From positions 1-35,179 of the IMG/VR virus record IMGVR_UViG_3300044617_001695: a stretch of DNA of 35,179 nucleotides, one strand, 5' to 3'. A program made the position numbers and the translations under genes. This document shows, piece after piece, positions 2 to 34,667 of this stretch. The DNA comes from a virus. The notes beneath the pieces were generated by a model, which saw nothing but the letters and a program-made list of their open reading frames with translations, ran no database searches and was not told the origin of the DNA. Each line of letters starts with the position of its first letter. Position 1 is the stretch's first letter.

Positions 2-841
2 CCCACCACCGCCCCACCGCCCGCCAACATCTTCGAGGCCGCCGGCGCCGGCGCCGACGCCACGGCGCCGCAGAACGCCAACGCGCACCCCGCCACGCAG
101 GCGCCCAAGCCGGACGACGGCAAGCCGCAGCGCCCCCCCGACGTGGCCGAAGAATTCTGGGACGCCGAAAAGGGCGTGGTGCGCGTGGCCGAGCTGGCGC
201 GCAGCCAGCGCGACCTGCGCACGCGCATTGCGCGCGGCGAGCACAAGCCGCCCGCCAGCGCCGACGGCTACACCCTGCCGGTGGTGGAGGGCGTGGACCC
301 CGCGCTGGTGCCGGCCGATGATCCGTTGTGGAAGGGCGTGCGCGAAGCGGCGCACGCGCGCGGCATTCCCCAGGGCGACCTGGAGGCGATCGCGGCACCC
401 TTCCTGAAGATCGCGTCAGAGGCCCTGAAGAACGCCAAGCCGGCCGCGCCTGACCCGGCCGCGACCGAAGCCGCGTATCAGCAGGAAATCACCAAGCTGG
501 GCCCGAACGGGCAGGCGGTGGTGGCCAGCGTGGGCACCTGGCTGAACGGCCTGGTGGCGCGCGGCACGCTGACCGCGGACGAGCTGGCCGACCTGCGCGC
601 GGTCAGCACCGCCAACGGGGTGCGCGCGCTGGTGAAGCTGCGCGAAATGGTCGGCGGCCCGCCCATTCCGCTGGACGCCGTGAGCGACGGCGCCATGAGC
701 CAGGCCGAGGCCGAGCGGCTGCTGACCGAGGGCCACGCCAAGAACGACGAGGCCATGAAGGCGCGCGCCCGCGGCGTGCTGCAGCAGCTGGAGAAGGCCG
801 GCCGCCTGGTGGTGCCAGGGCCTGGCGGCCGGGTGGGGTGA
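2..841 (+). CDS. Capsid scaffolding/assembly protein, 5'-truncated
   Basis: The frame is open from base 2 to the TGA at 839-841, so the start lies outside the window; 279 residues are visible. The N-terminal part is rich in Ala, Pro, Gly and Asn. It is followed by a segment typical of podoviral scaffolds (YTLP then a DPLW..REAAHARG stretch) and a charged helical C-terminus. Scaffolds direct procapsid assembly and leave before DNA packaging. The call rests on position immediately before the capsid gene and on the helical, low-complexity character. The GTG at 143 is not the true start, because clear coding sequence continues upstream. Confidence 0.75.
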   Translation, partial: PTTAPPPANIFEAAGAGADATAPQNANAHPATQAPKPDDGKPQRPPDVAEEFWDAEKGVVRVAELARSQRDLRTRIARGEHKPPASADGYTLPVVEGVDPALVPADDPLWKGVREAAHARGIPQGDLEAIAAPFLKIASEALKNAKPAAPDPAATEAAYQQEITKLGPNGQAVVASVGTWLNGLVARGTLTADELADLRAVSTANGVRALVKLREMVGGPPIPLDAVSDGAMSQAEAERLLTEGHAKNDEAMKARARGVLQQLEKAGRLVVPGPGGRVG

Positions 842-864
842 ACGGGAAACGCCAACCCGTTCAC
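838..864 (+). terminator. Perfect hairpin at the end of the scaffold gene
   Basis: A 9-bp perfect stem (GTGAACGGG at 838-846, CCCGTTCAC at 856-864) with a 9-base loop overlaps the scaffold stop codon. No T-run follows, so it is not a classical intrinsic terminator. It may be an attenuator, an RNA-processing site or an mRNA-stabilising structure that separates scaffold from capsid expression. Confidence 0.45.
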
Positions 865-1101
865 ACTTCCCCGGATTTGCGATTGACGCGGCGCGCCCCG
901 ATTTGACAGCAATTGCGGCACCAGGTGGCTGCACCTGGGCGGCGGGGGCGCCGCGGCTTCGCCCCAAGTGACCGGACCCTTGGACGGGGCTGCATCCACC
1001 GGCAGGCGCGCATGCGCCGGGGGGACCCCCAACGCCTTGGCCCTATCCGCGCGAAACGGCTGGCCGCCGAGAAGGCCAATCGCTTCCCGAGGAGTACGGC
1101 A
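865..1101 (+). promoter_or_regulatory. Structured leader of the capsid gene
   Basis: This gene-free stretch holds two further perfect stem-loops: 921-927 with 932-938 (CCAGGTG/CACCTGG, 4-base loop) and 945-950 with 960-965 (GGGGCG/CGCCCC). A TTGACA hexamer at 904-909 could be a -35 element, but I see no convincing -10. A strong ribosome-binding site (GAGGAG, 1089-1094) ends the stretch. The arrangement suggests post-transcriptional control or transcript processing of the most abundant virion protein. Confidence 0.35.
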
Positions 1102-8637: not shown

Positions 8638-11606
8638 TGCTGCTGGACCTGGCCGGAAGCCGCGTGGCCAGCACGCCCGTGAAGCCGCTGGAGGCCGCGC
8701 CGGTCGATGCCAGCGAGCGCCTGAACGCCGCATGGGAAGCGCAGAAGCTGCGCGGCTGGTGGGGCTTGACGCAGATGGCGCCCCACACCGCCTATGAGGA
8801 CGCGCGTGAGGCATTCCGCCGGGCCGGCCTGCCCGTGCCGCAGAACCCTTACGACGCCAGCCCGGACGAGCGCACCGACCCGCTGACCGACCTTTCCCAG
8901 CGCGCCTTCCGCGCCGCCACCGGCAGCCCGACCCGCGCCAGCCTGACCGAGGCCTACCGCGCCGCCGCCGCCAAGGCGCGCGAGCAGTTTCCCGACCTGG
9001 CCGACACCTTCCCTGATCCGTTCGAGCTCGAGGCCCAGGCGCAGCGCCGCGCCCGCGCCGCCCAGCAACGGCTGGACGAAGCCGAGGCCGGCGGCACCGG
9101 CGTCGGCACCTGGCTTGCTGGCGCCGCCGGCGGCATGGCGGCCGCCATTCTGACCGACCCCTTGCAGCTGGTCACCCTGCCGATCGGCGCGCCCAGCAAC
9201 CTGGCGGGATCGACCGCGCTGCGCGTGCTGAAGGCCGCCGCCATTGAAGGCGGCGTGGCGGCCGCAGCGCAGGCCGCCAGCACCACCCTGAACCGCCAGG
9301 CGCAGCTGGCCGCCGGCATCACGCCCGACCCGCTGGCCGATATCGCCCTGGCCGGCGCCGGCGGCGCCGTGCTGGGCGGCGGCATGCGCGCGGCCGTGGA
9401 GGGCTGGCGGGCCATGCGCGCGCGTGGCGCCGTGAACCCCGAGGCCGACCAGGCCGCCAGCGTGGCCCAGGCCTGGGAAATGGCCCAGGCCGGTGATCCC
9501 GGTGGCGGTGCGCCTAATGCCCACGCCACGGCCATGGACCAGGCGTTGGGCGATGCCGCTGCAGGACGGCCCACGGCGGCCAGCGGACTGCCGCCGGTAG
9601 CGGCGCCTGATGCGGCGCAGCGCCTAGCCGGGCTGAACCCAACCGATTTGCGCGTGCATGTCGGGACTGTCATTGACGGCATCATCACCGCACAAGCAGG
9701 CGTTCGGCAGGATGGCGCATGGCGCAGTGATCTGGGCGCCATCACTGTCGAATGGGGGCAGGCCGGCAATCCCTTGCGCCAGCATCGTGGCGGCTTCGGC
9801 ATTTCCCACATCATCGCGCGCCGCAACGCCGAAGGTAATGACGGCGAGGAATGGGTTCGCACCGTGCTGCCGGACGTGCTGCTGCAAGGCCGCGTGGCCG
9901 CCGTCTATGGGCCGCCTGACGGTCTGCGTGTCGATCTGGTGTGGCAGAACCACCAAGCGTCGCTGTCGCTTTATCGCAATGGCCAGCGTGAAACCTGGGT
10001 GGTCACGGGTTTTCCGCAAAACGGCGGCCCCGGTGGAACGGGAGGGGTAAACCCTGCGCCGCCCTACGCGCCGGCGCCCTCTGGTATACAGGCGCCGGCG
10101 GGAGCGAGGCCGCCGAGCCCCATCATAGGCGGTCCGGCCGCGCGTTTCCAGACCTTCACCGCGGCGGGCCGCGGCATCTTGGTGGAACCGCGCGTGGTTG
10201 AGCTTGACACGCTGGTGCCCAGCAATCTCGACGACTTCACGCCCAACCCGGCCTACCCACACCGCGAAGGCGTACAGCCGCGCGACCGGTCGCGCGAAAG
10301 CGACCAGCAATGGGTGCGCGAAACCGCCTCCAGCATCAACCCCGAGCTGCTGGGCCGCAGCGCCACGGCCGATGCCGGCGCGCCGATCGTTGGCCCCGAC
10401 AACGTGGTGGAAAGCGGCAACGGCCGCATCATGGCGCTGCGCCGGGCCGCGCGCGAACACCCAGAAGTCTGGGCCAACTATCAGGCATGGCTGGCCGACC
10501 AGGGCTTCGACCTGGCGGCATACCGCCAGCCCGTGCTGGTCATGGATCGCATCAGCGCGCTGACAGCCACCGAACGCGCCTTGTTCGTGACCGAGGCCAA
10601 CGCCCCCACCGCCGCGCGCATGAGCGCGGCCGAAACCGCACGCGCCGATGCAGGCCGGCTGGACGACATTTTGGACCTGCACCAAGGCGGCGACGTGGGG
10701 CAGGCCCGCAACGTGGACTTCGCCCGCGCCTTCCTGGCCAGCCTGCCGCGCAGCGAAGCCAACGCGCTGCGCACGGCCGATGGGCAGCTGAGCGTGGACG
10801 GCCTGCGCCGACTGCGCGCCGCGCTGCTGGCCCGCGCCTATGGCGACCAGGCCGGCCCGCTGCTGGAACGCATGCTGGAAAACGCCGACACCGACATCAA
10901 GGCCATCGCCGGCGCGCTGGAGGATGTTTCGGCCGAATGGGCGCGCATGCGCGTGCTGGCCGCACGCGGCCTGCTGCCCGGCGACCCGGACCGCACCGCC
11001 GACCTGCTTTCCGCCGTGCGCGCCGTGGAGCACGCCCGCGGCACCGGCCCGCGCGTGGACGACTGGCTGGCCAGCGGCGACTTCTTCGACCCCACGCGCG
11101 GCCTGAGTGACCGCGCCATGGCGTTCCTCGCCGGCTTCTTCCGCGACGACGCGGCGCCCTTCAGCCGCGCCGCCGGGCGCGACACCGTGACCGCCCGCCT
11201 ACGAAGCTATGCCGACGCGGCCATTGCCACACGCCAAGTTGATATGTTCACCCCGGCGCCAGGCCGCGCAGAAGGCCCGCAGGATGCGCCAAACGCACCC
11301 GCTGGCACCATGCGCCCGGAAACCGACGCGGACGCACCAGCGCCGCGCCCGGGCGCGCCAGACCCCATTCCGGCCAACGTGCAGGCCGCCCGCGCCGCCC
11401 TCGCTGACGCTGCGGTTCCGCCGCCCAAGGATGCCGACGCCGCGCTGTTCCTGGACGCGCAGCGCGCCGCCGCCGCCGGCGACTTCACCGTGCCCACCGA
11501 AAGCGGCGCCAGCATGGGCGCGCGGCAGTTGCTGGACGAGGCCGAGGACGCCGCCGCGCAGGCCGCCCAGGCCGGCGCATGCCTGGTCGGAGGGGCCGCG
11601 ACATGA
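8634..11606 (+). CDS. Ejected polyvalent protein: membrane-active N-terminus, PBECR-type nuclease, DdrB-like ParB domain
   Basis: 990 residues; ATG at 8634 with GGGAGG upstream. Residues 1-150 are helical and 153-252 form a Gly/Ala-rich, membrane-interacting region as in ejection proteins. Residues about 330-470 resemble the phage Barnase-EndoU-ColicinE5/D-RelE nucleases (GGFGISHIIARR at 386-397 with His392; WVVTGF at 455-460). A Pro/Gly linker follows. Residues about 505-780 match the DdrB-like ParB superfamily (DNVVESGNGR at 589-598, then an EANAPTAARMSAAE segment). The C-terminus is Ala/Pro-rich. Polyvalent proteins are injected with phage DNA to counter host functions; that role here is inference. 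Bases from about 9480 to 10300 have visibly different codon use. Confidence 0.75.
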   Translation: MMLLDLAGSRVASTPVKPLEAAPVDASERLNAAWEAQKLRGWWGLTQMAPHTAYEDAREAFRRAGLPVPQNPYDASPDERTDPLTDLSQRAFRAATGSPTRASLTEAYRAAAAKAREQFPDLADTFPDPFELEAQAQRRARAAQQRLDEAEAGGTGVGTWLAGAAGGMAAAILTDPLQLVTLPIGAPSNLAGSTALRVLKAAAIEGGVAAAAQAASTTLNRQAQLAAGITPDPLADIALAGAGGAVLGGGMRAAVEGWRAMRARGAVNPEADQAASVAQAWEMAQAGDPGGGAPNAHATAMDQALGDAAAGRPTAASGLPPVAAPDAAQRLAGLNPTDLRVHVGTVIDGIITAQAGVRQDGAWRSDLGAITVEWGQAGNPLRQHRGGFGISHIIARRNAEGNDGEEWVRTVLPDVLLQGRVAAVYGPPDGLRVDLVWQNHQASLSLYRNGQRETWVVTGFPQNGGPGGTGGVNPAPPYAPAPSGIQAPAGARPPSPIIGGPAARFQTFTAAGRGILVEPRVVELDTLVPSNLDDFTPNPAYPHREGVQPRDRSRESDQQWVRETASSINPELLGRSATADAGAPIVGPDNVVESGNGRIMALRRAAREHPEVWANYQAWLADQGFDLAAYRQPVLVMDRISALTATERALFVTEANAPTAARMSAAETARADAGRLDDILDLHQGGDVGQARNVDFARAFLASLPRSEANALRTADGQLSVDGLRRLRAALLARAYGDQAGPLLERMLENADTDIKAIAGALEDVSAEWARMRVLAARGLLPGDPDRTADLLSAVRAVEHARGTGPRVDDWLASGDFFDPTRGLSDRAMAFLAGFFRDDAAPFSRAAGRDTVTARLRSYADAAIATRQVDMFTPAPGRAEGPQDAPNAPAGTMRPETDADAPAPRPGAPDPIPANVQAARAALADAAVPPPKDADAALFLDAQRAAAAGDFTVPTESGASMGARQLLDEAEDAAAQAAQAGACLVGGAAT

Positions 11607-17402: not shown

Positions 17403-17624
17403 TCACCGCCCGCCTCCCTGTTCCGCCGCCGCCTTCTCCAGCCGCGCCAGCACGATGCGAGCGCCGACCAGATCGCCGGTCGGATCGCTTAGGTAGATCG
17501 GCCTAGAGCCGTACGGTGAGCGGGCCAGGTGCTCCCTGCGCATGGCCTCAAACGCAACCAGCTGTTTCTCGTGATCGGCGATCGTTGCCCGCACGATGGC
17601 CAGCGCATCGTCCCAAGTTAGCAT
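17403..17624 (-). CDS. Small protein downstream of integrase, unknown
   Basis: 73 residues. ATG 17624 overlaps the integrase stop (TGATG), so it is probably translated by coupling. The longer frame reaching 18245 is antiparallel noise over the integrase. The sequence is helical and charged (MLTWDDALAIVRATIADHEK..., ending KAAAEQGGGR). No family is recognised. Confidence 0.6.
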   Translation of the reverse strand: MLTWDDALAIVRATIADHEKQLVAFEAMRREHLARSPYGSRPIYLSDPTGDLVGARIVLARLEKAAAEQGGGR

Positions 17625-18811
17625 CAGGCCTTCCCTCCCTGTTCCGCCGCCAGCCTGGCCTTGAAGGCCCGGCGCGCGCTGGCGGCGGTGCGCACCAGGT
17701 AGTGATTGCCCAGGATCGCATCGACCCCCTTGGGCGTGTGGCCGGTGATGCTGGCAATCGTGAGCGCGTCGCACCCGGCCTCGTTCAGCCTGGTCACGGC
17801 GGTGTGCCGCAGCCACATGAACCAAAGGCCCGCCACGCCAGGCCGCGCGGCCAGCGCCGGCTGGTCGGCCGTGGCCGGCAGGCCGGCGGCCGCGGCGGCC
17901 CGCACTTCGGCGAAGGCATGGCGGAAACTGTCCTCTGCCCAGGCTTCGCCGGTGCGATCGTGCACCAGCAGGTGCGCCACGTGCTGCACGGCGCCAGGCC
18001 GCGCGGCTTCGGCCTGCAGGCGCGCCACCAGGTGGGGCACCAGGTCGATCGGCAGCGCCACCTGGCGCTTGGTCTTGCCCTGGCGGAACACCAGCGCGCC
18101 GTCGGCGAGCTCCCACCGCGGCAGGCGCAGCACGTCGCCCTGGCGCTGGCCCATCCATTCGTTCAGCAGCACCGCCGTGCCCACGCTGCGCCAGCCCAGC
18201 CGATCGGCCGCGGCCACCAGGGCGGCCACGTCCGCCGGTTCCCATAGGCGCGGATCGGTGCGGCGCTTGTGGCTGATCGCGGGGTTAATCGCCGGGTTGC
18301 TGGCCACCAGGCCCAGCAGGCGCCCGGCCTCAAACACCAGGCGCAGCACGCGCACCAGCGCGGCGGCCTTCGCCGGCGTGGTGGCGTGCCGGGCGTAGAA
18401 TTCCTGGACCAGCGCCGGCGTGATCGACCTGGCCGGCGCGTCGCCGCACCAGTCGGACACGATCGCCAGGCACCAGTCGTAGAATTTGCGGGTCTTGGGC
18501 GCCAGCGCGTCGCCGGCATAGAAGCGGCTGGCCTTGTAGCGGGCCACCAGGTCGTCCACCGAGCCGGGCGCCGCGGCCGCGCGCTTGCGCCTGGTGCTGG
18601 CCGGCGCCGCCGGGTGGGCTTCGCCGCGGCGCCAGGCATCCACCGCCTGGTTGCGGGCCTGCGCGGCCGCCACCGCCTGGGCTTCATCGTCCGGCAGGCG
18701 CGTGGGCTGCCAGCCCTGGGCGCGCAGCTCGCCCGAGGGCTGCCAGAACCAGCGATCGCCCCCGAATTTGCCGGGCTTCCGTACCAGATACCGCACCTTG
18801 ATGGTGGCCAT
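17624..18811 (-). CDS. int: Tyrosine-type integrase
   Basis: 395 residues, the usual length for phage integrases. Residues 1-60 resemble an arm-binding domain, 83-170 the SAM-like core-binding domain, 185-395 the catalytic domain. Visible catalytic residues are Arg223 (GQRQGD), Lys246 (QGKTKR), Arg335-His336 (LRHT), His358 (TGH) and nucleophile Tyr371 (NHYL). The His usually found three residues before the second Arg is Met332 here. It should recombine attP with a tRNA-Lys gene and lies 0.7 kb from the attP core. A GGGGAG ribosome site precedes ATG 18811. Confidence 0.92.
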   Translation of the reverse strand: MATIKVRYLVRKPGKFGGDRWFWQPSGELRAQGWQPTRLPDDEAQAVAAAQARNQAVDAWRRGEAHPAAPASTRRKRAAAAPGSVDDLVARYKASRFYAGDALAPKTRKFYDWCLAIVSDWCGDAPARSITPALVQEFYARHATTPAKAAALVRVLRLVFEAGRLLGLVASNPAINPAISHKRRTDPRLWEPADVAALVAAADRLGWRSVGTAVLLNEWMGQRQGDVLRLPRWELADGALVFRQGKTKRQVALPIDLVPHLVARLQAEAARPGAVQHVAHLLVHDRTGEAWAEDSFRHAFAEVRAAAAAGLPATADQPALAARPGVAGLWFMWLRHTAVTRLNEAGCDALTIASITGHTPKGVDAILGNHYLVRTAASARRAFKARLAAEQGGKA

Positions 18812-22887: not shown

Positions 22888-22935
22888 ATGTTTCCTGACA
22901 GGCACATTCCTGTCAAGAAGAAATATCCTGACAGG
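22888..22935 (-). promoter_or_regulatory. Leftward early promoter with three repressor-operator candidates
   Basis: On the minus strand, TTGACA (22916-22911), a 17-base spacer and AAACAT (22893-22888) form a promoter for the leftward operon. Three 9-bp palindromes of the form CYTG(A/T)CARG lie here: 22894-22902 (in the spacer, touching the -10), 22909-22917 (covering the -35) and 22927-22935 (upstream). The same pair geometry recurs at 23702-23731. The clustering, not the single motif, is the evidence for operators. Confidence 0.7.
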
Positions 22936-23009: not shown

Positions 23010-23192
23010 TCAGCCGAACAACGGCCGCAGGATCATCCAGTAGATCGGCCAGATGGTGGCCAGCAAGGCATTGATCGGCAATGCGATCAGCCAGTTCCAG
23101 GCGTTGTAGCGGTAGCCGTCGAAAAACGTGAGGAAAACAAAGGTCGCGGCATCAGCCGCCAGATAGGCATACAGCAGCGCCCGGCCCCACAT
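23010..23192 (-). CDS. Small membrane protein co-expressed with the repressor
   Basis: 60 residues from ATG 23192, which overlaps the repressor stop (TGATG). Two membrane helices are visible (about 4-25 and 34-55), with aromatic residues and the end WPIYWMILRPLFG. It would be made in the lysogen from the repressor transcript. Small membrane proteins in this position often change the lysogen's sensitivity to other phages (superinfection exclusion); that role is inference. The general WNW...IWPIYW pattern is one I recall from other prophages. Confidence 0.7.
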   Translation of the reverse strand: MWGRALLYAYLAADAATFVFLTFFDGYRYNAWNWLIALPINALLATIWPIYWMILRPLFG

Positions 23193-23644
23193 CAAACCGA
23201 CCTGGGCGGTTCGTGGAACCCGTGCGGACCACGCTTGCCGGTGCTGCCAAGTGGCCGCCCGCGCCGCGGTGCGGCGGCAGGCGCCCGCAGCAAATGCGGC
23301 GACTGATGGGCCAGTTCACGCGCGGCGCGGGCCATCATGGCGCCGCCTTCCAGCCAGTTGCGCCGCATGGCCGGTTCCATGATGGCCAGAATGCGCCGGG
23401 CTTCCGCCAGTTCGGCGCTGCTTTCCACCGTGCTGGGCGCCCGCAGCAAATCGGCCGGGTGCGCCACGCCATAAAGCTGCGCCAGCGCCGCCAGGTCGCT
23501 GAGCTGCGGCGAGACCCGGCCGGTTTCCCATTTCGAGACCGCCGCCGTGCTTTCAAACCCGAAAAGCGCGGCAACGTGATGCTGCTTCAGCCCGGCGCGG
23601 TCGCGCCACTCGGCCAGGTGAATGTGGGGCTGGTCTGCCGACAT
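23192..23644 (-). CDS. CI-like repressor, short form without peptidase domain
   Basis: 150 residues from ATG 23644. Residues 9-62 form an XRE helix-turn-helix (LAEWRDRAGLKQHHVAALFG, then AVSKWETGRVSPQLSDLAALA). The C-terminal half is helical (EARRILAIMEPAMRRNWLEG) and basic; no S24/LexA-type Ser-Lys autoprotease is present. Induction must therefore differ from the RecA-stimulated cleavage of lambda CI. It diverges from the Cro-like gene, and both flanking promoters carry the repeated palindrome. The ribosome site before ATG 23644 is weak. Confidence 0.8.
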   Translation of the reverse strand: MSADQPHIHLAEWRDRAGLKQHHVAALFGFESTAAVSKWETGRVSPQLSDLAALAQLYGVAHPADLLRAPSTVESSAELAEARRILAIMEPAMRRNWLEGGAMMARAARELAHQSPHLLRAPAAAPRRGRPLGSTGKRGPHGFHEPPRSV

Positions 23645-23701
23645 ACCCGCAAGGATAGCCAACGGGCCGCAACCGCGAGAGGTGCGAGCAGGAACAAGTT
23701 G

Positions 23702-23731
23702 CTTGACAAGAACTTTCCTGACAGGATTAAT
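23702..23731 (+). promoter_or_regulatory. Rightward early promoter with two operators
   Basis: TTGACA (23703-23708), 17-base spacer, ATTAAT (23726-23731). The palindrome CTTGACAAG (23702-23710) covers the -35 and CCTGACAGG (23717-23725) fills the spacer up to the -10, the same arrangement and 15-bp centre spacing as at the leftward promoter. Transcription should start about 7 bases after the -10, i.e. at or beside the ATG at 23739, giving a leaderless mRNA. Confidence 0.7.
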
Positions 23732-23738
23732 CTGCGCC

Positions 23739-23963
23739 ATGGACCTTCGCAGCTATCTTGCCGAGCACCGACTGACGCACGAGGCCTTCGCCCGCCAGAT
23801 CGGCGTGACGACCTCGGCCGTGACCAAGCTGGTGGCCGGCACGCGGCCCAGCTGGCCGACCATGGAGCGCATCGTTGCCGCCACCAGCGGCGCCGTGACC
23901 CCCAACGACTTCCTGCCCCCCACCGCCACCACCCCGGCCCAGGCCGACCAGGTGGCCGCATGA
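23739..23963 (+). CDS. Cro-like HTH protein
   Basis: 74 residues from ATG 23739, seven bases after the promoter -10, with no ribosome site: leaderless. The helix-turn-helix is HEAFARQIGVTTSAVTKLVAG, followed by RPSWPTMERIVAATSG. This is the size and layout of Cro/YdaS-like switch proteins divergent from a repressor. The C-terminal 24 residues (GAVTPNDFLPPTA..., ending ADQVAA) are duplicated at the end of the next small gene. The stop overlaps the next ATG (ATGA). Confidence 0.75.
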   Translation: MDLRSYLAEHRLTHEAFARQIGVTTSAVTKLVAGTRPSWPTMERIVAATSGAVTPNDFLPPTATTPAQADQVAA

Positions 23964-24091
23964 TCGACCTGACGCAGGGGTGGTGGCTGGACGAGCGGGG
24001 TCAGCTGGTCTGGCGCCCAGGCGGCGCCGTGACCCCCAACGACTTCCTGCCCCCCACCGCCCCGGCCCCGGCCGACCAGGTGGCCGCATGA
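23887..24091 (+). repeat. Tandem duplication of the Cro-like gene tail
   Basis: Bases 23887-23927 and 24021-24061 are identical (41 bp). After a short divergent stretch with a 6-base length difference, 23943-23963 and 24071-24091 are again identical (21 bp), each ending in the ATGA overlap with the next gene. The spacing is 134 bases at the left end. Confidence 0.85.
23960..24091 (+). CDS. Chimeric 43-residue ORF: unknown start joined to duplicated Cro tail
   Basis: Begins MIDLTQGWWLDERGQLVWRP and ends with a copy of the Cro-like C-terminus. It is coupled by ATGA on both sides, so it is probably translated, but it looks like the 5' end of one gene fused to a copy of another gene's 3' end. 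The natural partner of the first 20 residues is not in the window. Confidence 0.45.
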   Translation: MIDLTQGWWLDERGQLVWRPGGAVTPNDFLPPTAPAPADQVAA

Positions 24092-24366
24092 GCGACTGGC
24101 GCGCGGCCGTCGTGGCGCGGTACGTCTCGCCGTTCGTGGTGTGGCGCGAGATGTACGGCAGCCTGGAAAACTGGCCCGCGCATCTGGCTAGTTTGGTTTC
24201 TCCGGCAGCGGCGCGGTCACCAGCACCTCGCCCTGTTTCGCCTTTTCGAGCCCGGCTTGCAGCAGCTGCGCCAGCCTGCCGCTGCTGCCACCGGTGGCCA
24301 CGCGCCAGCGCAGCAGGTCCAGCAGCGCGTCGGCCTTGCCTGTCAGCACGGCGAGGTCGGCCATGA
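24088..24366 (+). CDS. Small right-operon protein, unknown
   Basis: Up to 92 residues from ATG 24088 (ATGA overlap). The first 32 residues (MSDWRAAVVARYVSPFVVWR, EMYGSLENWPAH) look like a real protein. The remainder is Pro/Arg-rich and lies antisense to the minus-strand gene at 24188-24400, so the true product may have been truncated or extended by an insertion at about 24180. Confidence 0.4.
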   Translation: MSDWRAAVVARYVSPFVVWREMYGSLENWPAHLASLVSPAAARSPAPRPVSPFRARLAAAAPACRCCHRWPRASAAGPAARRPCLSARRGRP

Positions 24367-25838: not shown

Positions 25839-26954
25839 ATGGCCGAAGCCGCGCCCGGTTCCCGCCCCCCCGCTGCCCGCCCCCCCGCTGCCCGCCCCAT
25901 GGTGCCGATCGCCGAGATCGCCGCGCGGCTGGACGAACGCGCGGGCGAGCTCGCGGCCGAGTTGCTGCCCGGCGGCCGGCACGATCGTGGCCAATGGCGC
26001 TGCGGCAGCATCTTCGGCGACCCCGGCAATTCGTTCGTCTACACGCTGGCCGGCCAGCACCGCGGCCGCTGGCACGAATTCAGCGACGGCAGCCACGGCG
26101 ACACGTTGGACCTGGTGGCTGCGGTGCGCTTCGGCGGCAACAAGAGCGACGCGATACGCTGGGCCCGCCGATACCTCGGCATCGATGACGCCGACCCGGC
26201 GGCGCTGCGCCAGCAGGCCATGGTGCGCGCCGAACGCCAGGCCCAGGAAGCCCAGCAGCACGCCGAGCACGACCAGGCCCGCCGGCGCCAGGCCTGGGCC
26301 CGCTGGCTTTCCGCCACGCCGATCAAGGGCACGCCGGCCGACCTCTATTTGGCCGGGCGTGGCGTTGGCCTGGCGCAGCTGGGCCGCGCGCCGCGCGCGC
26401 TGCGCTTCGCCGCCATGGAATGGAACGACGAGGCGCGCATGCACATGCCGTGCATGCTGGCCGCAATCGTGCGCGCCGACGGCAAGCACCTGGCCACGCA
26501 CCGCACCTGGATCGAACGCGACGGCGCCGGCGGCTACCGGAAGGCCAAGCTGAAGTACCCCAAGAAGGTGCTGGGCGCGTTCGCCGGCGGCACCATCAAC
26601 CTCTGGCGTGGCCAGTCCGGCAAGCCGCTGCGCGACGCGCCCGACGGCGACACGGTGGCCCTGGCCGAGGGCATCGAGGACGCGCTGACCGTGGCGCTGG
26701 CCTGCCCCACCTGGCGCGTGCTGGCGGCCGTGAGTGTGGGAAACCTGGCCAACGTGGCCTTGCCGCCGGCGATCGCCGAGGTGGTGCTGGTGCTGCAGCG
26801 GGATGGCGAGAACGACCAGGTGCGCCGCGCCCGCGACGCGGCCGAACGGCGCTTCATGGAGGAAGGCCGCAGCGTGAAGCGGGCCCTGCCACCAGAAGGC
26901 CACAAGGACTTCAACGACTGGCACCAGGCGCAGCTGCGCCAGGGGGCGGCATGA
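25839..26954 (+). CDS. DNA primase with Toprim domain
   Basis: 371 residues. A Pro/Ala repeat (PPAAR twice) at residues 10-19 precedes an N-terminal domain (45-115) shaped like the zinc-binding domain of phage primases (GRWHEFSDGSHGDTLDLV) but without the cysteine quartet. The C-terminal Toprim domain has catalytic Glu277 (LAEGIEDALT) and an acidic loop at 322-326 (RDGEND), ending in KDFNDWHQA. It should make RNA primers for replication together with the ATPase/helicase at 30176. Its last 40 bases recur at 27299-27338. Confidence 0.8.
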   Translation: MAEAAPGSRPPAARPPAARPMVPIAEIAARLDERAGELAAELLPGGRHDRGQWRCGSIFGDPGNSFVYTLAGQHRGRWHEFSDGSHGDTLDLVAAVRFGGNKSDAIRWARRYLGIDDADPAALRQQAMVRAERQAQEAQQHAEHDQARRRQAWARWLSATPIKGTPADLYLAGRGVGLAQLGRAPRALRFAAMEWNDEARMHMPCMLAAIVRADGKHLATHRTWIERDGAGGYRKAKLKYPKKVLGAFAGGTINLWRGQSGKPLRDAPDGDTVALAEGIEDALTVALACPTWRVLAAVSVGNLANVALPPAIAEVVLVLQRDGENDQVRRARDAAERRFMEEGRSVKRALPPEGHKDFNDWHQAQLRQGAA

Positions 26955-27281: not shown

Positions 27282-27338
27282 ATGATCTTTGTCCCGACCG
27301 ACTGGCACCAGGCGCAGCTGCGCCAGGGGGCGGCATGA
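27282..27338 (+). pseudogene. Chimeric junction ORF (18 residues)
   Basis: ATG 27282 reads MIFVPTDW followed by HQAQLRQGAA and TGA. The first 25 bases (27281-27305) copy the start of the gene at 27970 (one mismatch, 27969-27993). The last 40 bases (27299-27338) copy the end of the primase gene (26915-26954) exactly. The two overlap in CGACTGG. It is a recombination fossil that still couples to the methyltransferase by ATGA. Confidence 0.85.
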
Positions 27339-27973
27339 GCCAGCGCGTTATCGTTGGCGACTGCCGCGCAGTCCTGCCCACGCTGCAGGGCGCCACGGTG
27401 GTGATCACTGATCCCGTGTGGCCCAACTGCCCGCCCGGCTTGCTGCAAGGGCATGATCGCCCGGCGGCGCTGCTGGCCGAGGCAATGGAGGCCCTGCCTT
27501 CGAGCGTGAAACGTGTGGTGCTGGTGCTGCGCAGCGACTGCGACCCGCGGTTCCTTGCGGGCGTGCCGGCGCGGTTCCCCTTCTTCAACGCCCTGTGGCT
27601 GCGTTACGCAATGCCAGGCTACATCGGCCGCAAGCTGGGCGGGTCCGAGATCGCCTATGCGTTCGGCGAGCCGATCCGCAGCGCACCGGCGCAAAGGCTT
27701 GTGCCCACGTTTTCGCCGGTGGCCCAGCCGCGCGACCGCCTGGCCAACGGGCACCCATGCTCGCGCGCGCTGGTGCACTTCGACTGGCTGGTGCGCTGGT
27801 GGACCGAAGCGGACGACGTGATCGTTGACCCATTCTGCGGCAGCGGCACCACGCTGGTGGCAGCGCTGCGGCAAAATCGCGCGGCCATCGGCATCGAGAT
27901 CGAGCCAGCCTATGCCGAGATCGCCCGCGCACGATTGGCCAACGAAGCCCCGTTGCTGGCGGTGGGCGCATGA
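27335..27973 (+). CDS. DNA methyltransferase (N4-cytosine/N6-adenine type)
   Basis: 212 residues. The order is catalytic motif first (TDPVWPN, Asp26-Pro27-Val28-Trp29) and AdoMet-binding motif last (VDPFCGSGTT at 164-173), i.e. the beta class of amino-methyltransferases; the N-terminal VGDCRAVLP is also typical. DPVW in place of DPPY/DPPW is unusual. No target-recognition insert of normal size is present, so it is a compact enzyme. It may protect phage DNA from restriction. It was probably brought in with the duplicated flanks described at 27282-27338. Confidence 0.85.
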   Translation: MSQRVIVGDCRAVLPTLQGATVVITDPVWPNCPPGLLQGHDRPAALLAEAMEALPSSVKRVVLVLRSDCDPRFLAGVPARFPFFNALWLRYAMPGYIGRKLGGSEIAYAFGEPIRSAPAQRLVPTFSPVAQPRDRLANGHPCSRALVHFDWLVRWWTEADDVIVDPFCGSGTTLVAALRQNRAAIGIEIEPAYAEIARARLANEAPLLAVGA

Positions 27974-28134: not shown

Positions 28135-28277
28135 ATTCCGGCCGGGTGCCTGAACACCTGGCCGGCATGCGGGCGTGCGCGCGGCTGCGCACGCGGTCCA
28201 TCGTGGACGTTTCCCACCGGCACCTTGCCGCGCGGCCGCGCCTGGCCGCGCGGCACTTTTCGAGTGGTGCCGTATGA
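28131..28277 (+). CDS. Possible small basic protein
   Basis: 48 residues from ATG 28131, coupled by ATGA at both ends. It is His/Arg-rich. The C-terminal third is encoded by the arms of the hairpin at 28226-28255, so the amino-acid sequence there may be a by-product of RNA structure. Coupling is the main support. Confidence 0.4.
   Translation: MNSGRVPEHLAGMRACARLRTRSIVDVSHRHLAARPRLAARHFSSGAV
28226..28261 (+). terminator. Intrinsic terminator/attenuator candidate
   Basis: TGCCGCGCGGC (28226-28236) pairs perfectly with GCCGCGCGGCA (28245-28255), 8-base loop, followed by CTTTTC. This is the best intrinsic terminator I see in the window. It lies inside the right operon, just before the winged-HTH gene, so it may set a step-down in expression or need antitermination. 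Confidence 0.6.
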
Positions 28278-29080
28278 CCCGCGCGGCGCAGGAAACCCAC
28301 GGCGAGCGCATTCTGGCCGAGCTGCAAATCTACCGCGGCAGCGTGGTTTCGCGTGCACAGCTGCTGGCCGCCATGTACCGCGATCGGCCGATCCCGCTGG
28401 GCGCGGTCGAGTGCCTGCGCGTGCAGGTCACCAGGCTGCGCGCCCAGCTGTACGCGCCCTGGCGGATCGTGAGCATCCGCGGCGTGGGCTACCGCCTGAC
28501 CGACAAGCCGCCCGCCGACCTTTCCCCCATCCAGCCCCGAGGTTCCGCCATGCGCGCCATCATGTTTGCCGTGCTGCTGCTGCTGCCCGCCCTGGGCCAC
28601 GCCCAATGGTACGCCGACAGCATCAACAGCCCGAACAGCCCGCGCGCGCTGAGCGTTAGCAGCAGCGCCGGCGGCGCCGGCGGCAGCGTGACCATGCGCG
28701 ACCGCCTGCAGGCGTCAGGCCTGGGCAGCTACGCCGCGGCCAGCGGGCCTTGCGTGGGCGCCAGCACCATGGCCGGCCTGACCTTCCCAGGCATCGGCGC
28801 CCAGGGCGGCCGCACCGAGATCGAGCCCGAATGCCAGGTGCGCGAGGCCGCGCGGCTGCTGGCCGCCATGGGCGACACCGAGGGCGCGCTGCGCCTGATC
28901 CGCAGCCTGCCCAGCGTGCGCGCGGTGCTGGCCGAACCGCCGGCGGTAGTGGCCACCGCGCCGATCGCCACGCCGCCCGCCGCGGCCGCGCTGGTGGCGC
29001 CGGCGCCGGCCCGGCCGGCCTGGTGCGACACCGCCAGCCCGGCCGACGGGCCCCGCGTGCAGGCCGCCTGCGCGCGCTGA
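28274..29080 (+). CDS. Winged-HTH protein fused in frame to a signal-peptide protein
   Basis: 268 residues from ATG 28274. Residues 5-75 form an OmpR/PhoB-type winged helix (RILAELQIYRGSVVSRAQLL, then VQVTRLRAQL and IVSIRGVGYRL). No stop codon separates it from residues 93-268, which begin with a hydrophobic segment (MRAIMFAVLLLLPALGHA) and continue as a Gly/Ser/Ala-rich, Cys-containing domain. As one protein it would have the layout of ToxR/CadC regulators: cytoplasmic HTH, membrane helix, periplasmic domain. As two proteins, the second starts at 28550. Both may be made. Confidence 0.55.
   Translation: MTRAAQETHGERILAELQIYRGSVVSRAQLLAAMYRDRPIPLGAVECLRVQVTRLRAQLYAPWRIVSIRGVGYRLTDKPPADLSPIQPRGSAMRAIMFAVLLLLPALGHAQWYADSINSPNSPRALSVSSSAGGAGGSVTMRDRLQASGLGSYAAASGPCVGASTMAGLTFPGIGAQGGRTEIEPECQVREAARLLAAMGDTEGALRLIRSLPSVRAVLAEPPAVVATAPIATPPAAAALVAPAPARPAWCDTASPADGPRVQAACAR
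28550..29080 (+). CDS. Secreted protein from an internal start of the same frame
   Basis: 176 residues from ATG 28550 with GAGG eight bases upstream. It has a textbook signal peptide with a likely signal-peptidase I site after GHA (residue 18), then a mature domain with a PCVGAS stretch, ECQVREAARLLAAMGDTEGA and an Ala/Pro-rich tail ending in two Cys-containing segments. The mature part resembles small periplasmic phage proteins of unknown function. Choosing between this start and the longer fusion needs experiment. Confidence 0.5.
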   Translation: MRAIMFAVLLLLPALGHAQWYADSINSPNSPRALSVSSSAGGAGGSVTMRDRLQASGLGSYAAASGPCVGASTMAGLTFPGIGAQGGRTEIEPECQVREAARLLAAMGDTEGALRLIRSLPSVRAVLAEPPAVVATAPIATPPAAAALVAPAPARPAWCDTASPADGPRVQAACAR

Positions 29081-29088
29081 CCCTGGCC

Positions 29089-29253
29089 ATGAACGCCTTG
29101 GGGCCCAGGCTATCCGCCGCCGCCGCCGGCGTGGCGTATCGCCCCGACATGGCTAACCGCGCGTTCCCCAAGCTGTACCCATGCGCGCGGCATGCTGAAA
29201 CCCCTGCCTGGGCGCAAGTGAGGTGGGAAAATGTCGGGAGCCGGCAACCTTGA
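29089..29253 (+). CDS. Doubtful 54-residue ORF
   Basis: ATG 29089 opens a frame that ends at 29253, inside the truncated helicase-start copy. It has Arg/Ala/Pro composition, no clear ribosome site and no recognisable motif. Listed only because nothing else occupies 29081-29249. Confidence 0.2.
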   Translation: MNALGPRLSAAAAGVAYRPDMANRAFPKLYPCARHAETPAWAQVRWENVGSRQP

Positions 29254-29290
29254 CCAAGCCACCCAGCAACGTGACCTTGATGGGCGCGCG
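29250..29290 (+). pseudogene. Truncated copy of the replicative helicase start
   Basis: 29251-29276 is identical to 30177-30202 (26 bp), and 29251-29290 matches 30177-30216 with three mismatches. It encodes TKPPSNVT with TTG in place of the ATG, then loses similarity after about 14 codons. It marks the left edge of the reversed cassette. Confidence 0.8.
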
Positions 29291-29314
29291 CTGCCTCGGC
29301 GCGCCCGTGGCCGG

Positions 29315-29578
29315 TCAGGCGCGAGACAGGCGCGCCACCGCGGCGCGGGCGGGGCGTATGGCGGCGCTGCGTTCATCGAGCAGCGCCAGCAGCGCGGCGA
29401 CCACCGGCGCGGGCCAGCGTGGCGCGCCCCAGCGCTGCGCCGCCTGGCGCGAGACGCCGAGCCGCGCCGCCACGAGCGCCCGCCAGTCGGAACCCAGCGC
29501 GGCAACCAGGATGGCCGGGATGGCGGGGGCGGTCATGCCCGCCCGCGCGGGAAGGTCAGGCTGCATTGTCGTCGCCAT
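29315..29578 (-). CDS. HTH protein of the reversed cassette
   Basis: 87 residues from ATG 29578, 13 bases after the upstream stop; an in-frame ATG at 29536 is an alternative. Contains a helix-turn-helix-like segment (RALVAARLGVSRQAAQRWG) followed by a long helix (VVAALLALLDERSAAIRPAR). It is the likely DNA-binding member of the cassette and could act on the palindrome at 30085-30115. No strong ribosome site is seen. Confidence 0.55.
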   Translation of the reverse strand: MATTMQPDLPARAGMTAPAIPAILVAALGSDWRALVAARLGVSRQAAQRWGAPRWPAPVVAALLALLDERSAAIRPARAAVARLSRA

Positions 29579-29591
29579 GGATGCTTGGGGT

Positions 29592-29840
29592 TCAAAGCAA
29601 GCTGGGCTGGGCAGCAACTGCGTTGGTCCGTGACTTGTGGCCGCAGTAAAGGGCCAGCACATCGGCAAGCGGCCAGGGCTGCTTGCTGATGCTGACCGAG
29701 CGGAAAACGGTCCAATCGCGCGCCTTGTTGTCGCACCCGGCGCGGGTCATGGCTTCGTATGCCGTGGCGCGCGTGCAGGGGATGCCGCCAAAGCTGATCA
29801 CTTCCAGCATCATGCGCGCTGCAAGATTGGTCTTGGTCAT
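29592..29840 (-). CDS. Middle gene of the reversed cassette, unknown
   Basis: 82 residues; ATG 29840 is preceded by AAGGGAG in a leader copied from the first gene. It begins MTKTNLAARMMLEVISFGGI and has two Cys and several Trp. The TRATAYEAMTRAGCDNKARD stretch could be a helix-turn-helix. No family is recognised. Confidence 0.6.
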   Translation of the reverse strand: MTKTNLAARMMLEVISFGGIPCTRATAYEAMTRAGCDNKARDWTVFRSVSISKQPWPLADVLALYCGHKSRTNAVAAQPSLL

Positions 29841-29862
29841 GTCGGTAGCTCCCTTGTTGATG
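29835..29862 (-). repeat. Duplicated leader, copy 2
   Basis: Identical over 28 bp to 30057-30084. On the minus strand it comprises CATCAACAA, the ribosome site GGGAG, ACCGAC and the start ATGACC. The same leader therefore serves the first two genes of the cassette. Confidence 0.9.
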
Positions 29863-29864
29863 TT

Positions 29865-30062
29865 TCAGGCGTATTCGGCGGTTTTGGCGACGCGGCGGCG
29901 GATATACGACCAATCGCCTGTCGCGATCACATTGCCGCGATCCGTCAGCGCCCACCCCTTCTTGCCATGGCGCAGCACGATCAGCCCGAGGTCAAAGCGG
30001 TCGATCGCGGCTTGCAGCTGCTTGGCGTTCGCTGCCGTGTCGCAAATTTCGTAAGCGGTCAT
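29865..30062 (-). CDS. First gene of the reversed cassette, unknown
   Basis: 65 residues; ATG 30062 with AAGGGAG. Begins MTAYEICDTAANAKQLQAAI and continues LGLIVLRHGKKGWALTDRG, ending with a WSYIRRR helix. It has alternating strands and helices and mixed charge. It is the promoter-proximal gene and so probably the most expressed product. Base composition is less GC-rich than its neighbours, suggesting transfer. No family is recognised. Confidence 0.65.
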   Translation of the reverse strand: MTAYEICDTAANAKQLQAAIDRFDLGLIVLRHGKKGWALTDRGNVIATGDWSYIRRRVAKTAEYA

Positions 30063-30084
30063 GTCGGTAGCTCCCTTGTTGATG
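30057..30084 (-). repeat. Duplicated leader, copy 1
   Basis: 28 bp identical to 29835-29862. Its left end on the transcript falls about six bases after the -10 hexamer, i.e. near the expected transcription start, so the duplicated unit is almost exactly the 5' untranslated leader plus two codons. Confidence 0.9.
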
Positions 30085-30118
30085 ACGATAGTAAACCACC
30101 TCGGTTTGCGATCGTCAA
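30085..30118 (-). promoter_or_regulatory. Promoter of the reversed cassette overlapping a palindromic operator
   Basis: On the minus strand: TTGACG (30118-30113), 17-base spacer, TTTACT (30095-30090). A 31-bp interrupted palindrome fills the spacer: ACGAT (30085-30089) with ATCGT (30111-30115), and AAACC (30093-30097) with GGTTT (30103-30107). A repressor bound here would block RNA polymerase. A second small palindrome (TCACG/CGTGA, 30135-30148) and a plus-strand GATAAT (30147-30152) follow and may belong to the helicase gene. Confidence 0.65.
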
Positions 30119-30175
30119 CATCGTTTCCGCACGTTCACGGTTTCGTGATAATGCGGTGATTGCAGGCCACGCCGC

Positions 30176-32002
30176 ATGACCAAGCCACCCAGCAACGTGA
30201 CCCCGATCGGCGCGCGCCTGCGCAACGCGCCGGCGGCGCCGCGCCGGCACAGCGTGCTGCCCGAAGATTGCCCGATCACGCCGCTGGGCGTGGAAGGCAA
30301 GAAAAACTGGTTGCTGGACGCGCTGGGCCAGTTGATTTCCGCCACGCCGCAGGAACTCGGCGCGGCCTGGCTACCTAATCTTTTCACGCCGCACGTCAGT
30401 TACTTGGAAAAGCACTGGCCGCGCAAAACCAAGATCGTCGACAAGAAGGCCGGCACGGTTGAATGGGTCATCAACGGCATTAAGGCTGAGCAGGTGCGGG
30501 CGGATATTGTGCAGGCCTGCGGTGCGCTGGGCGTGTGGAGCCCGTACGCCAAAGTGCGTGGCAGGGGCGCCTGGCGCGGCGAGGATGGCGACCTAATCCT
30601 GCACTGTGGCGACGTGCTGTACATCAACGGCCAGATCACGCGGCCCTGCGTGCGCAACGGCATGGTCTATCCGGTCTACAGCGCGCGCCCGCGCCCGGCG
30701 GCAGATCCCGAGCCCGGCGGCGGCACCGGCGCCGGTCACCAACTGCTGACGATGCTCAACACCTGGTCATGGCATCGGCGCGGGCTGGACGCGCGGCTGC
30801 TGCTGGGCTGGGTCTGCGCGGCCATCCTGGGCGGCGCTCTGCACTGGCGGCCCGCCTGCTGGGTTACTGGCGACCGTGGCACCGGCAAATCCACCCTGCA
30901 GGAACTTATCCGCTGCGTGCTGGTCGACGGCGAAGGGATATATTCGGTTTCGGACACGACCGCCGCCGGTATCCGCAGCGCCGTGGGGTTCGACAGCCTG
31001 CCCGTCGGCCTCGATGAGCTGGAGGCCGAGGAAGACAACACGCGGGTCAACGCCGTGATCGGCCTGGCCCGCCAGGCCAGTAGCGGCGGCGTCATCCTGC
31101 GCGGCAGCAGCGACCACAGCGGCGCCAACTTCATCGCGCGCTTTGCGACGCTCTACAGCTCGATCCTCATACCGCCGTTGCGCGCACAGGACCGCAGCCG
31201 CATCGCCCTGCTGGGCCTGCGCCCGCTGGGCAACGCGCGGCCGCCCGTGCTGCGCCCCGACGAGTTGCGCGAGCTGGGCCAACGCCTGATGCGCCGCATG
31301 GCCGATCGCTGGCAGCATTTGCCGGCGGCCATGGAAACCTGGCGTGAGGCGCTGATGGCCCAGGGCTACGACAGCCGCGGCTGCGACCAGTTCGGCACGC
31401 TGCTGGCCTGCGCTGACCTGGCGCTGGAGGACGAGCCGATCGACAGCGACAGCTTGGCCGAGATCGTGGGGCGCCTGGTCGACAGCACGGCCGACGAACG
31501 CGCTGACGAGCTGGCCGATTGGGCGCGGTGCATCGAGCACCTTACCACCAGCGCCGGGCCCATCCTGCCGGGCAAGATGCCGGCCACGGTGGGCACGCTG
31601 ATGGCCATGGCGGCGGCGCGCCCGGTCATCCGCGATGCCGACACGGGCGACAGCCGCCGCCCCGACCCAAAGCAGCAGGCGGATGCAGCAGACATGCTTT
31701 CCATGATCGGGGTGCGCGTGATGGAGCACGCGCCCAACCAGCCGGCCATGGTGGCCGTGGCGAACAGCCACAAGGGGCTGAACGGGGTGTTCCAGGGCAG
31801 CCATTGGCAGGCGCGCAGCGGCGCCAGCGGCACGTGGAAACAGGCCCTGGGGCGCTGCCCTGGCGCCGTGGCCAGCGCGGCCGCGGTGCGCTTCCGTGGC
31901 ACGCAGCAGCGCGCCGTGCTGGTGCCGCTGGCCCGCATGCTGGGCGAATACGACGCGGCTGCGGCGGCCCCCACCTCAGCCGACACCAGCGACGCCACAT
32001 GA
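30176..32002 (+). CDS. Replicative ATPase/helicase (primase-helicase-like)
   Basis: 608 residues from ATG 30176. Walker A GDRGTGKST at 232-240 and a Walker B-like acidic pair at 280-281 (PVGLDELEAEED) lie in a P-loop core containing SVSDTTAAGIRSAVGFDSLP and a GGVILRGSSDHSG segment. This pattern belongs to a phage/prophage family of replication ATPases related to helicases. The N-terminal 200 residues may bind DNA or primase. It is followed directly by an iteron-rich region, as expected for an initiator-helicase. A broken copy of its first 14 codons lies at 29250. Confidence 0.75.
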   Translation: MTKPPSNVTPIGARLRNAPAAPRRHSVLPEDCPITPLGVEGKKNWLLDALGQLISATPQELGAAWLPNLFTPHVSYLEKHWPRKTKIVDKKAGTVEWVINGIKAEQVRADIVQACGALGVWSPYAKVRGRGAWRGEDGDLILHCGDVLYINGQITRPCVRNGMVYPVYSARPRPAADPEPGGGTGAGHQLLTMLNTWSWHRRGLDARLLLGWVCAAILGGALHWRPACWVTGDRGTGKSTLQELIRCVLVDGEGIYSVSDTTAAGIRSAVGFDSLPVGLDELEAEEDNTRVNAVIGLARQASSGGVILRGSSDHSGANFIARFATLYSSILIPPLRAQDRSRIALLGLRPLGNARPPVLRPDELRELGQRLMRRMADRWQHLPAAMETWREALMAQGYDSRGCDQFGTLLACADLALEDEPIDSDSLAEIVGRLVDSTADERADELADWARCIEHLTTSAGPILPGKMPATVGTLMAMAAARPVIRDADTGDSRRPDPKQQADAADMLSMIGVRVMEHAPNQPAMVAVANSHKGLNGVFQGSHWQARSGASGTWKQALGRCPGAVASAAAVRFRGTQQRAVLVPLARMLGEYDAAAAAPTSADTSDAT

Positions 32003-32956: not shown

Positions 32957-33234
32957 CTTGGACAGCGCCGACTTGGACAGCAGGCCGCAAAGCCAGGGCC
33001 GGCCTGGGTTTCCGGCCGGCCGCGCCACTGATCCGCTATCAGCGGCCGGGCGCCGGCGATCGGGCCAGGCCAGGCGTGCGACCCCCCCCTGCCACCCCTT
33101 GCGCCCCCCCGCCCCCCCACGCGCGCGCCCGCGTTCTTCGCCCCTGTCTGTCAGGACAGTTGAAGCGAAATTCGCGTGTTCGAGGCCAAGGGGGAGCCAC
33201 GGCCACCGGGTGGGGGTGCGGGGTGGCCGCATGA
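32953..33234 (+). CDS. Bridging ORF between terminase subunits
   Basis: 93 residues from ATG 32953, overlapping the small-subunit stop (ATGA) and itself ending in ATGA with the large-subunit start. The N-terminus has an in-frame repeat (TWTAP, TWTAG; bases 32955-32966 and 32970-32981) and RKARAGLGFRPAAPLIRYQ. The remainder is Arg/Pro/Gly-rich over a C-rich tract and looks weakly protein-like. It may serve mainly to carry ribosomes to the large subunit, or the DNA may be a packaging site. An inverted repeat CTGTC/GACAG lies at 33148-33159. Confidence 0.4.
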   Translation: MTWTAPTWTAGRKARAGLGFRPAAPLIRYQRPGAGDRARPGVRPPPATPCAPPPPHARARVLRPCLSGQLKRNSRVRGQGGATATGWGCGVAA

Positions 33235-34667
33235 GCAACCGCACGGTGTGGCAGGCGCCTGGCCCCGTGGCGCAGGCCTTCCTGGAGACCACCGACCTGG
33301 TGGCCGTGCTGCTGGGCCCGGTGGGCGGCGGCAAGACCGTGACCGGCCTGATGCGCGGCGTGTTCTGGTCCTATGGCTACCCGGCCGAAAGGGACGGGGT
33401 GCGTCGCATCAAGGGCGCGGTGATCCGGCGCACCTACGTGGACTTGTGGAGCACCACCATCCCGAGCTGGTGGGCGTGGTTCCCGCAAAGCCTGGGCACC
33501 TGGACCGGCGGGCAGGGCGGCCCGGCAAGCCACGTGCTGACCCTGCGCCACCCCGGCGACGGCGGGCTGATCGAGCTGACCGTGCAGTTCATCGGCCTGG
33601 GCGACCGCGAACTGGAAAGCGCGATGCGCGGCTGGGAAGGCAGCTGGTGCTACGTGGACGAGATCGACCTGATGGACCGCCGCGCGCCGGGCTGGCTGTT
33701 GAGCCGCACCGGCCGCCACCGGCTGGGCCAGGTGCCGGTGAAGCCGCCAGGCGCGGTGTGGGGCACCTGCAACGCGCCCGACGTGGACCATTGGATTTTC
33801 GCCGACTTCATCGAGCGCCCGCGCGACGCCTACCGGCTGTTCCGCCAGCCTTCCGGCCTGAGCCCCGACGCCGAGAACATCCGCATTCTGGGCCTCAGCT
33901 ACTACCCCGACCTGGTGCGCACCATGAGCGAATGGGAGGTGCGGCGCTTCGTGCGGTGCGAGTTCGGCCCGAGCCGCGACGGCCAGCCGGTCTATCCCGA
34001 ATTCAACGACCGGCTGCACATGAGCGAGACGCCGCTGGAGGTGCTGCCAGGCCGCACGCTGGTGCTGGGCCTGGACGCGGGCGGCACGCCGGCGGCCGCC
34101 GGCTTCCAGCGTGCGGCGAATGGCCAATGGCGCGGCCTGTTCGAGCTGGCCACCGACGGCACCGAGGTGGTGGGGCCAACCAGGTTTGGCGAGCTGCTGG
34201 CCGTGCAGCTGGCGGAAAAGCGGTTCCGCGGCCTGCGTATCGAAGCCTATGGCGACCCTTCCGCCGCGTGGGGCGCCGACACGCAGGCCGGCGAAGCTTC
34301 GTGGCTGGAAAGCGTGGGCAACGCGATCGGGCAACAGATCCTTCCAGCGCCCACCAACGCCGCGGCGCCGCGCATCGAGGCGCTGCGCCTGCCGCTGGCG
34401 CGGCTGATCGATGGCCGCCTGCCGGGCATGATCCTGGACCCCAGCATGCGCCAGACCCGCGGCAACCTGGCCAGCCGCTACCGCTACAGCGTGACCAAGG
34501 GCGAGCGCGGCAACGCGCCGATGAAAAACCACGCCAGCCACCTGACCGACGCGGAGCAATACGCGCTGTTGGGCGGCGGCGAATACGCGGCCGTGATGGG
34601 CCGCAAGCAGGTGCGTGCCGAAGCGCGCCGGCCGGTGATCGCTTCCACCAGCTTCAACCCGATCTAG
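33231..34667 (+). CDS. terL: Terminase large subunit
   Basis: 478 residues from ATG 33231; the longer open frame upstream covers the bridging ORF and is rejected. The ATPase domain has Walker A GPVGGGKT at 29-36 and Walker B CYVDEID with Asp143-Glu144. The nuclease domain has the first acidic residue at Asp282 (VLGLDAGGTP), preceded by PVYPEFN at 254-260. This is the packaging motor that pumps DNA into the procapsid and cuts it. Confidence 0.92.
   Translation: MSNRTVWQAPGPVAQAFLETTDLVAVLLGPVGGGKTVTGLMRGVFWSYGYPAERDGVRRIKGAVIRRTYVDLWSTTIPSWWAWFPQSLGTWTGGQGGPASHVLTLRHPGDGGLIELTVQFIGLGDRELESAMRGWEGSWCYVDEIDLMDRRAPGWLLSRTGRHRLGQVPVKPPGAVWGTCNAPDVDHWIFADFIERPRDAYRLFRQPSGLSPDAENIRILGLSYYPDLVRTMSEWEVRRFVRCEFGPSRDGQPVYPEFNDRLHMSETPLEVLPGRTLVLGLDAGGTPAAAGFQRAANGQWRGLFELATDGTEVVGPTRFGELLAVQLAEKRFRGLRIEAYGDPSAAWGADTQAGEASWLESVGNAIGQQILPAPTNAAAPRIEALRLPLARLIDGRLPGMILDPSMRQTRGNLASRYRYSVTKGERGNAPMKNHASHLTDAEQYALLGGGEYAAVMGRKQVRAEARRPVIASTSFNPI

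Follow-up and report, generated by a model that had tools for sequence, protein, structure and literature searches.

A block of three small genes that sits against the replication genes of a temperate phage is an independently promoted and, to judge from its sequence, probably autoregulated cassette. We read it as a self-regulated accessory (moron-type) locus, with the last gene, C, as the likely repressor and with anti-defence as the leading guess for its function, and we give this reading a probability of about 50%. The view of an independent, probably self-controlled unit follows from a promoter and a dyad that overlie each other, from the conservation of both in the one relative found, and from the lack of a perfect CI-type operator at the promoter. 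The case is a modest one, since the layout is familiar and only one, partial relative is available. Phage anti-defence proteins have been discovered among small orphan genes whose strong promoters are under their own control.

The phage and the position of the cassette

The window analysed is an entire IMG/VR virus record of 35,179 bases and about 71% GC, and its integrase-like, CI-like and Cro-like genes indicate a temperate phage. The cassette opposes a rightward block of genes and lies directly upstream of the helicase gene, for which no relatives were found in genome contigs.

17624-18811, minus strand: integrase-like gene, ~36% identical to annotated integrases on Bradyrhizobium plasmids
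23192-23740, minus strand: CI-like repressor gene
23622-23963, plus strand: Cro-like gene
25839-26954, rightward block: DUF7146/Toprim primase
27335-27973, rightward block: methylase
30176-32002, plus strand: primase/helicase-type replication gene flanking the cassette (the helicase; PHROG 21086, E 2e-72; PHROG 35358, DNA primase, E 2.3e-48)

Promoter and operator

30090-30118, minus strand: sigma-70-type cassette promoter (-35 TTGACG at 30118-30113, 17-bp spacer, -10 TTTACT at 30095-30090), conserved in the relative
30083-30117, centre 30100: imperfect palindrome of 35 bp, putative operator, TGACGATNGNAAACC-N5-GGTTTNCNATCGTCA
30124-30152, plus strand: possible divergent helicase promoter beside the operator, TTTCCG-17-GATAAT, recognised by eye

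The cassette promoter, already proposed in an earlier sequence-only reading, stands: it matches the consensus at 9/12 positions and carries an extended -10 (TGG, with the TG one base ahead of the -10), and an automatic promoter scan had omitted it because of the T at position 2 of the -10. The palindrome said to fill its spacer is also present and has the highest composition-aware dyad score among all centres in the window, but it measures 35 bp rather than 31. It pairs at 13 of 17 positions and is centred on the spacer, extending across the -10 and the greater part of the -35. By score alone the dyad is only suggestive (its score was equalled at some position in one of 15 dinucleotide shuffles of the whole window); what makes it convincing is its position on the promoter together with the conservation of its arms in the relative. 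The score itself appears to pick real operators, as suggested by the runner-up palindrome, which is centred at 22906, within the CI-operator cluster.

Perfect matches to the dyad half-site, ACGATNGNAAACC, are confined in the window to its own two arms, and in viral contigs the operator patterns were found only on the contig of the relative. Perfect CI-type sites, CCTGACAGG, occur only at 22894-22935 (three, clustered) and at 23717-23725 (one, between the -35 and -10 of the early promoter ahead of Cro); these are probably CI operators, distinct from the cassette dyad. That early promoter has, by eye, the same design (TTGACA, a spacer holding CCTGACAGG, ATTAAT) with a different operator. Since no perfect CI-type operator lies at the cassette promoter, its control appears to be separate from that of CI; direct control of the cassette by CI was considered and is unsupported, the perfect sites being limited to the immunity region. 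A promoter of this kind could be on in a lysogen, as would be expected if A and/or B formed a prophage-expressed defence or superinfection-exclusion system shielding the lysogen from other phages. We regard this as unlikely, given that the cassette has no PADLOC match at E up to 1 and that its proteins are very small and without recognised effector domains. No terminator was found in 28900-30300, and Rfam gave 0 matches.

Genes of the cassette

29865-30062, minus strand: gene A, 65-aa orphan, called by coding statistics; no family match
29592-29840, minus strand: gene B, 82-aa orphan, called by coding statistics and by a match in the relative
29315-29536, minus strand: gene C, 73 aa from the ATG at 29536; HTH-like candidate repressor with a weak coding signal
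30057-30084, minus strand: 28-bp leader with RBS, CATCAACAAGGGAGCTACCGACATGACC, of gene A (exact direct repeat)
29835-29862, minus strand: second copy of this leader, before gene B (exact direct repeat)

The three reversed small genes described earlier could be recovered, A and B clearly and C as the least certain of them. All lie on one strand, with 24 nt between A and B and at most 55 nt between B and C. With log-odds codon scores learned from fifteen further genes of the phage, gene A reached +0.40 and gene B +0.22 bits per codon, with the other five frames negative and 0/1000 shuffles reaching the score in each case; A and B are clearly coding. The 73-aa form of C scored +0.10 bits per codon, and its doubtful status reflects two antisense frames that score almost as high (+0.05 and +0.08). 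Alternative starts of C at 29566 and 29578 would give 83 and 87 aa, and the gene lacks a good RBS. The 28-bp leader, which the sequence-only reading overlooked, does hold a good RBS, and its two copies in the window are both in the cassette.

Neither A nor B matched a known family in NCBIfam, Pfam, PHROGs or the PDB sequences, known Acr homologues included, and no solved structure or significant phage or plasmid relative was found for either. Gene A has no homologue in viral contigs or phages (matches at E 0.4-0.6 were disregarded), and gene B has one partial homologue in viral contigs and none in genome contigs, phages or plasmids (two phage matches at E 0.9 were disregarded); the pattern searches relied on exact matches to short peptides and may have passed over diverged homologues. 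No homologue of A or B was found beside any known defence or anti-defence gene. Modelled without alignments, gene A gave a beta-alpha-beta-beta-beta-alpha fold of medium confidence (pLDDT 73), the structural searches with which stayed at noise level (best Foldseek E of 0.085 in the PDB and 0.022 among viral models; best VIA Z of 5.9), and gene B reached a pLDDT of 57.

As for the HTH-like member of the cassette, a local profile built from six phage HTHs gives weak support for C being such a protein (12 bits, E 0.0064, with 7.8 bits as the best of 200 self-shuffles). C is the highest-ranking ORF of the window after three known HTH genes, and inspection places the HTH-like segment at LVAARLGVSRQAAQRWG. 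The curated databases did not bear this out: C had no NCBIfam match and no Pfam match at E up to 10 (an AcaFinder-type search asks for a Pfam HTH model at E<1e-3), and only an HTH family at E 1.8 in PHROGs. No homologue of C was found in viral contigs or phages. A resemblance of the long C frame to a minor-head protein (PHROG, E 0.017) was rejected, as the match is absent with the 73-aa form.

A mosaic of small genes beneath a constant promoter

29513-29570, minus strand: 58-nt block common to the window and the relative (blastn, 96.6% identity), comprising the C head and a few preceding codons
29250-29311, plus strand: diverged helicase-start remnant (TTGACCAAGCCACCCAGCAACGTGACC...) at the left border of the cassette (repeat search)

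The only relative of the cassette found in IMG/VR is IMGVR_UViG_3300044624_002358 (our L001, L005 and L007). Its helicase is 73% identical to that of the window at the amino acid and 75.5% at the nucleotide level, whereas the intergenic region is 95.6% identical up to the helicase start, with four differences, two of them at the dyad centre. Behind the same promoter and operator the relative carries an unrelated first gene, A' (70-75 aa), then a truncated C head, and then B. A' keeps a clear coding bias and has no homologue in the phage collection. The C head soon diverges into a short frame that overlaps the B start by ATGA, and B, the sole cassette gene seen in the relative, is 97% identical in amino acids and 99.1% in nucleotides over 111 nt (the first 37 codons), to the contig end. 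Cassette pieces that are 95.6-99.1% identical beside a helicase at 75.5% indicate recent exchange. Two further traces concern gene order. The 58-nt block opens with codons like the end of A' (D-N-A-A-stop in the window, D-D-A-A-stop in the relative), suggesting that an A'-like gene once preceded C in the window, and 12 bases, TGAACCCCAAGC, stand after B in the window and before B in the relative. By this comparison the locus is a mosaic of small genes beneath a constant promoter, as read from one relative whose contig ends inside B, such that an intact C could lie beyond. At 2-886 (minus strand) the same contig has a frame resembling a DNA cytosine methyltransferase (PCQPFS motif).

The conserved gene triplet envisaged in the sequence-only reading is thus not what the single relative shows: its first gene differs, its visible C is a truncated head, and B comes in a different order. 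Neither a toxin-antitoxin pair nor an obligate three-gene module fits this well; it is better accounted for by an accessory cassette that recombines and resembles acr-aca loci in design. Small genes, an HTH gene and an operator in the promoter are the type II toxin-antitoxin layout as well (a parallel also drawn in PMC9765179), with the HTH protein as the autorepressing antitoxin. Yet no fixed pair is seen, with the first gene different, C truncated and B retained (in one relative whose contig ends in B), and toxin-antitoxin families gave no match, the sole trace being gene A against Pfam Ntox27 at E 0.1, below cut-off; we consider such a module very improbable. Of the earlier proposal of an autoregulated cassette of small proteins, then, the self-regulated part gains from the conserved promoter and dyad, while its toxin-antitoxin option is disfavoured.

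The left border was described earlier as a broken copy of the helicase start, and this was confirmed: positions 29251-29311 match 30177-30237 at 82% over 61 nt, the first 26 nt being identical. The stop codon of gene C lies three bases from the end of the remnant, and the ORF preceding it ends in TTGA, overlapping the TTG of the remnant. We infer that the helicase may formerly have started at the remnant, and that recombination may then have brought in a block bearing the cassette together with a second helicase start; events could also have run in the other direction. The low GC content attributed to the whole block applies to the promoter, A and B (29560-30175, 60%, within the lowest ~0.15% of 600-nt windows) but not to gene C, which is at 80% against a window mean of 71%. 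The broken helicase copy, the truncated C head of the relative and the weak coding signal of C might also be taken as recombination debris, in which A and B are passengers, C is a decaying fragment and nothing is selected. The clear coding bias of A, B and A' and the conserved promoter-operator and RBS speak against this, and we find it distinctly unlikely.

A more distant phage (L008, 54% helicase identity) lacks the cassette: its Toprim primase (3817-4929) overlaps the helicase start (4926) with no cassette in between, and the rest of the record yielded no B. That phage also lacks the HNH, methylase and other genes that separate primase from helicase in the window, which means that the absence is not peculiar to the cassette. 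The same phage bears on the possibility that operator and repressor form a local replication switch governing the divergent helicase promoter along with the cassette, with A and B modulating replication. The dyad does lie between the divergent starts, just upstream of that possible promoter, and the intergenic conservation with the relative reaches the helicase start. However, the helicase promoter is weak (only 3/6 matches at the -35), the main CI-controlled early operon can supply helicase transcription, the relative has a different gene in first place, and the distant phage manages without the region; a switch of this kind seems improbable to us.

Comparison with known systems

The cassette belongs to a type of phage locus that is well known. 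In acr-aca operons an HTH gene is co-transcribed with small acr genes and the HTH protein binds a promoter repeat, and in each bacterial Aca family tested the core promoter contains an inverted repeat (PMC9410906). AcaFinder looks for genes on the same strand, with gaps under 250 bp and proteins under 200 aa, and with an HTH model match (PMC9765179); here the proteins are of 65 (A), 82 (B) and 73-87 (C) aa, with gaps of 24 and at most 55 nt. The cassette resembles acr-aca loci in its short same-strand genes, the HTH-like gene in last place, the inverted repeat in the core promoter and the mosaic content, and differs from them in that no known Acr or Aca homologue was found, C has no Pfam HTH match and there is no CRISPR evidence. 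We do not class it as an acr-aca member, because C has no curated HTH match and searches of NCBIfam, Pfam, PHROGs and the PDB sequences gave no known Acr homologue.

As in morons and other accessory loci, the genes are extra and reoriented, with (by sequence) a promoter of their own, inside an otherwise collinear operon; in base composition the promoter, A and B are AT-richer than the window while C is GC-richer; and the cassette is absent between the same neighbours in the distant phage. Unlike morons, it has its own operator and no terminator was found (not every described moron has one), and the difference from the distant phage exceeds the cassette. In the mobile regulatory cassettes of T4-type phages, regulatory repeats are tied to the shuffling of small early genes; here, the arrangement is instead a promoter-operator with a repeated leader, and no promoter-plus-stem-loop unit is seen. 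The leader also recalls the SAS/ESAS elements of cluster K mycobacteriophages, that is, conserved RBS-containing repeats ahead of start codons, about half of them with upstream inverted repeats (PMC3203893), in being a conserved RBS-containing repeat just ahead of the starts of different genes. It differs from SAS (13 bp, GGGATAGGAGCCC-type, at many genes) in length (28 bp), sequence, and number (two copies at one locus), and from SAS/ESAS in that only the first leader copy has the dyad in its promoter.

Proposed mechanism and significance

Under the preferred reading of a self-regulated accessory locus, transcription would start at the strong leftward promoter immediately before the replication helicase, and the small proteins would be translated via the standard leader and RBS. 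A dimeric HTH repressor, most likely C, would bind the 35-bp dyad over the spacer and -10 and shut the promoter, giving a burst of expression upon entry and then a low, CI-independent level. Between phages, the small genes would be swapped by recombination at short shared stretches (the 28-bp leader, the C head, the helicase start), with promoter and operator retained. A and B would most likely target host functions, with acr-aca-like anti-defence as the foremost guess; a defence or anti-defence role is plausible, and the findings do not discriminate between defence, anti-defence and other accessory roles.

Because the promoter and operator are constant and the genes turn over, the operator could provide a bait for finding more such genes, and in archaeal viruses conserved regulatory sequences have served to find anti-defence genes (PMC11065993). 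A stronger version, which we hold to be possible yet doubtful, is that A, B and A' represent new families of inhibitors, exchanged downstream of an unchanging promoter-operator to which a novel HTH autorepressor, undetected by Pfam, would bind. If so, the operator itself could fish out more anti-defence genes.

Other features of the phage

In the replication region, 28175-28545 encodes an OmpR-type winged-helix domain (Trans_reg_C, E 5e-8) without a receiver domain, followed at 28550-29080 by a protein with a signal-peptide-like start. The frame at 33230-34667 is a candidate large terminase by position and sequence alone; with 0 Pfam matches at 0.01 and 0 in the phage collection at 1e-10, it would, if a terminase, be strongly diverged. 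A large virion-region protein (8634-11606) contains a ddrB-like ParB domain (E 1.5e-28) and has a sub-threshold PBECR1 nuclease-like match. Finally, the stretch coding for the C-terminal tail of the Cro-like protein (AVTPNDFLPPTA...ADQVAA; 23887-23968) has a ~90% identical second copy at 24021-24096.
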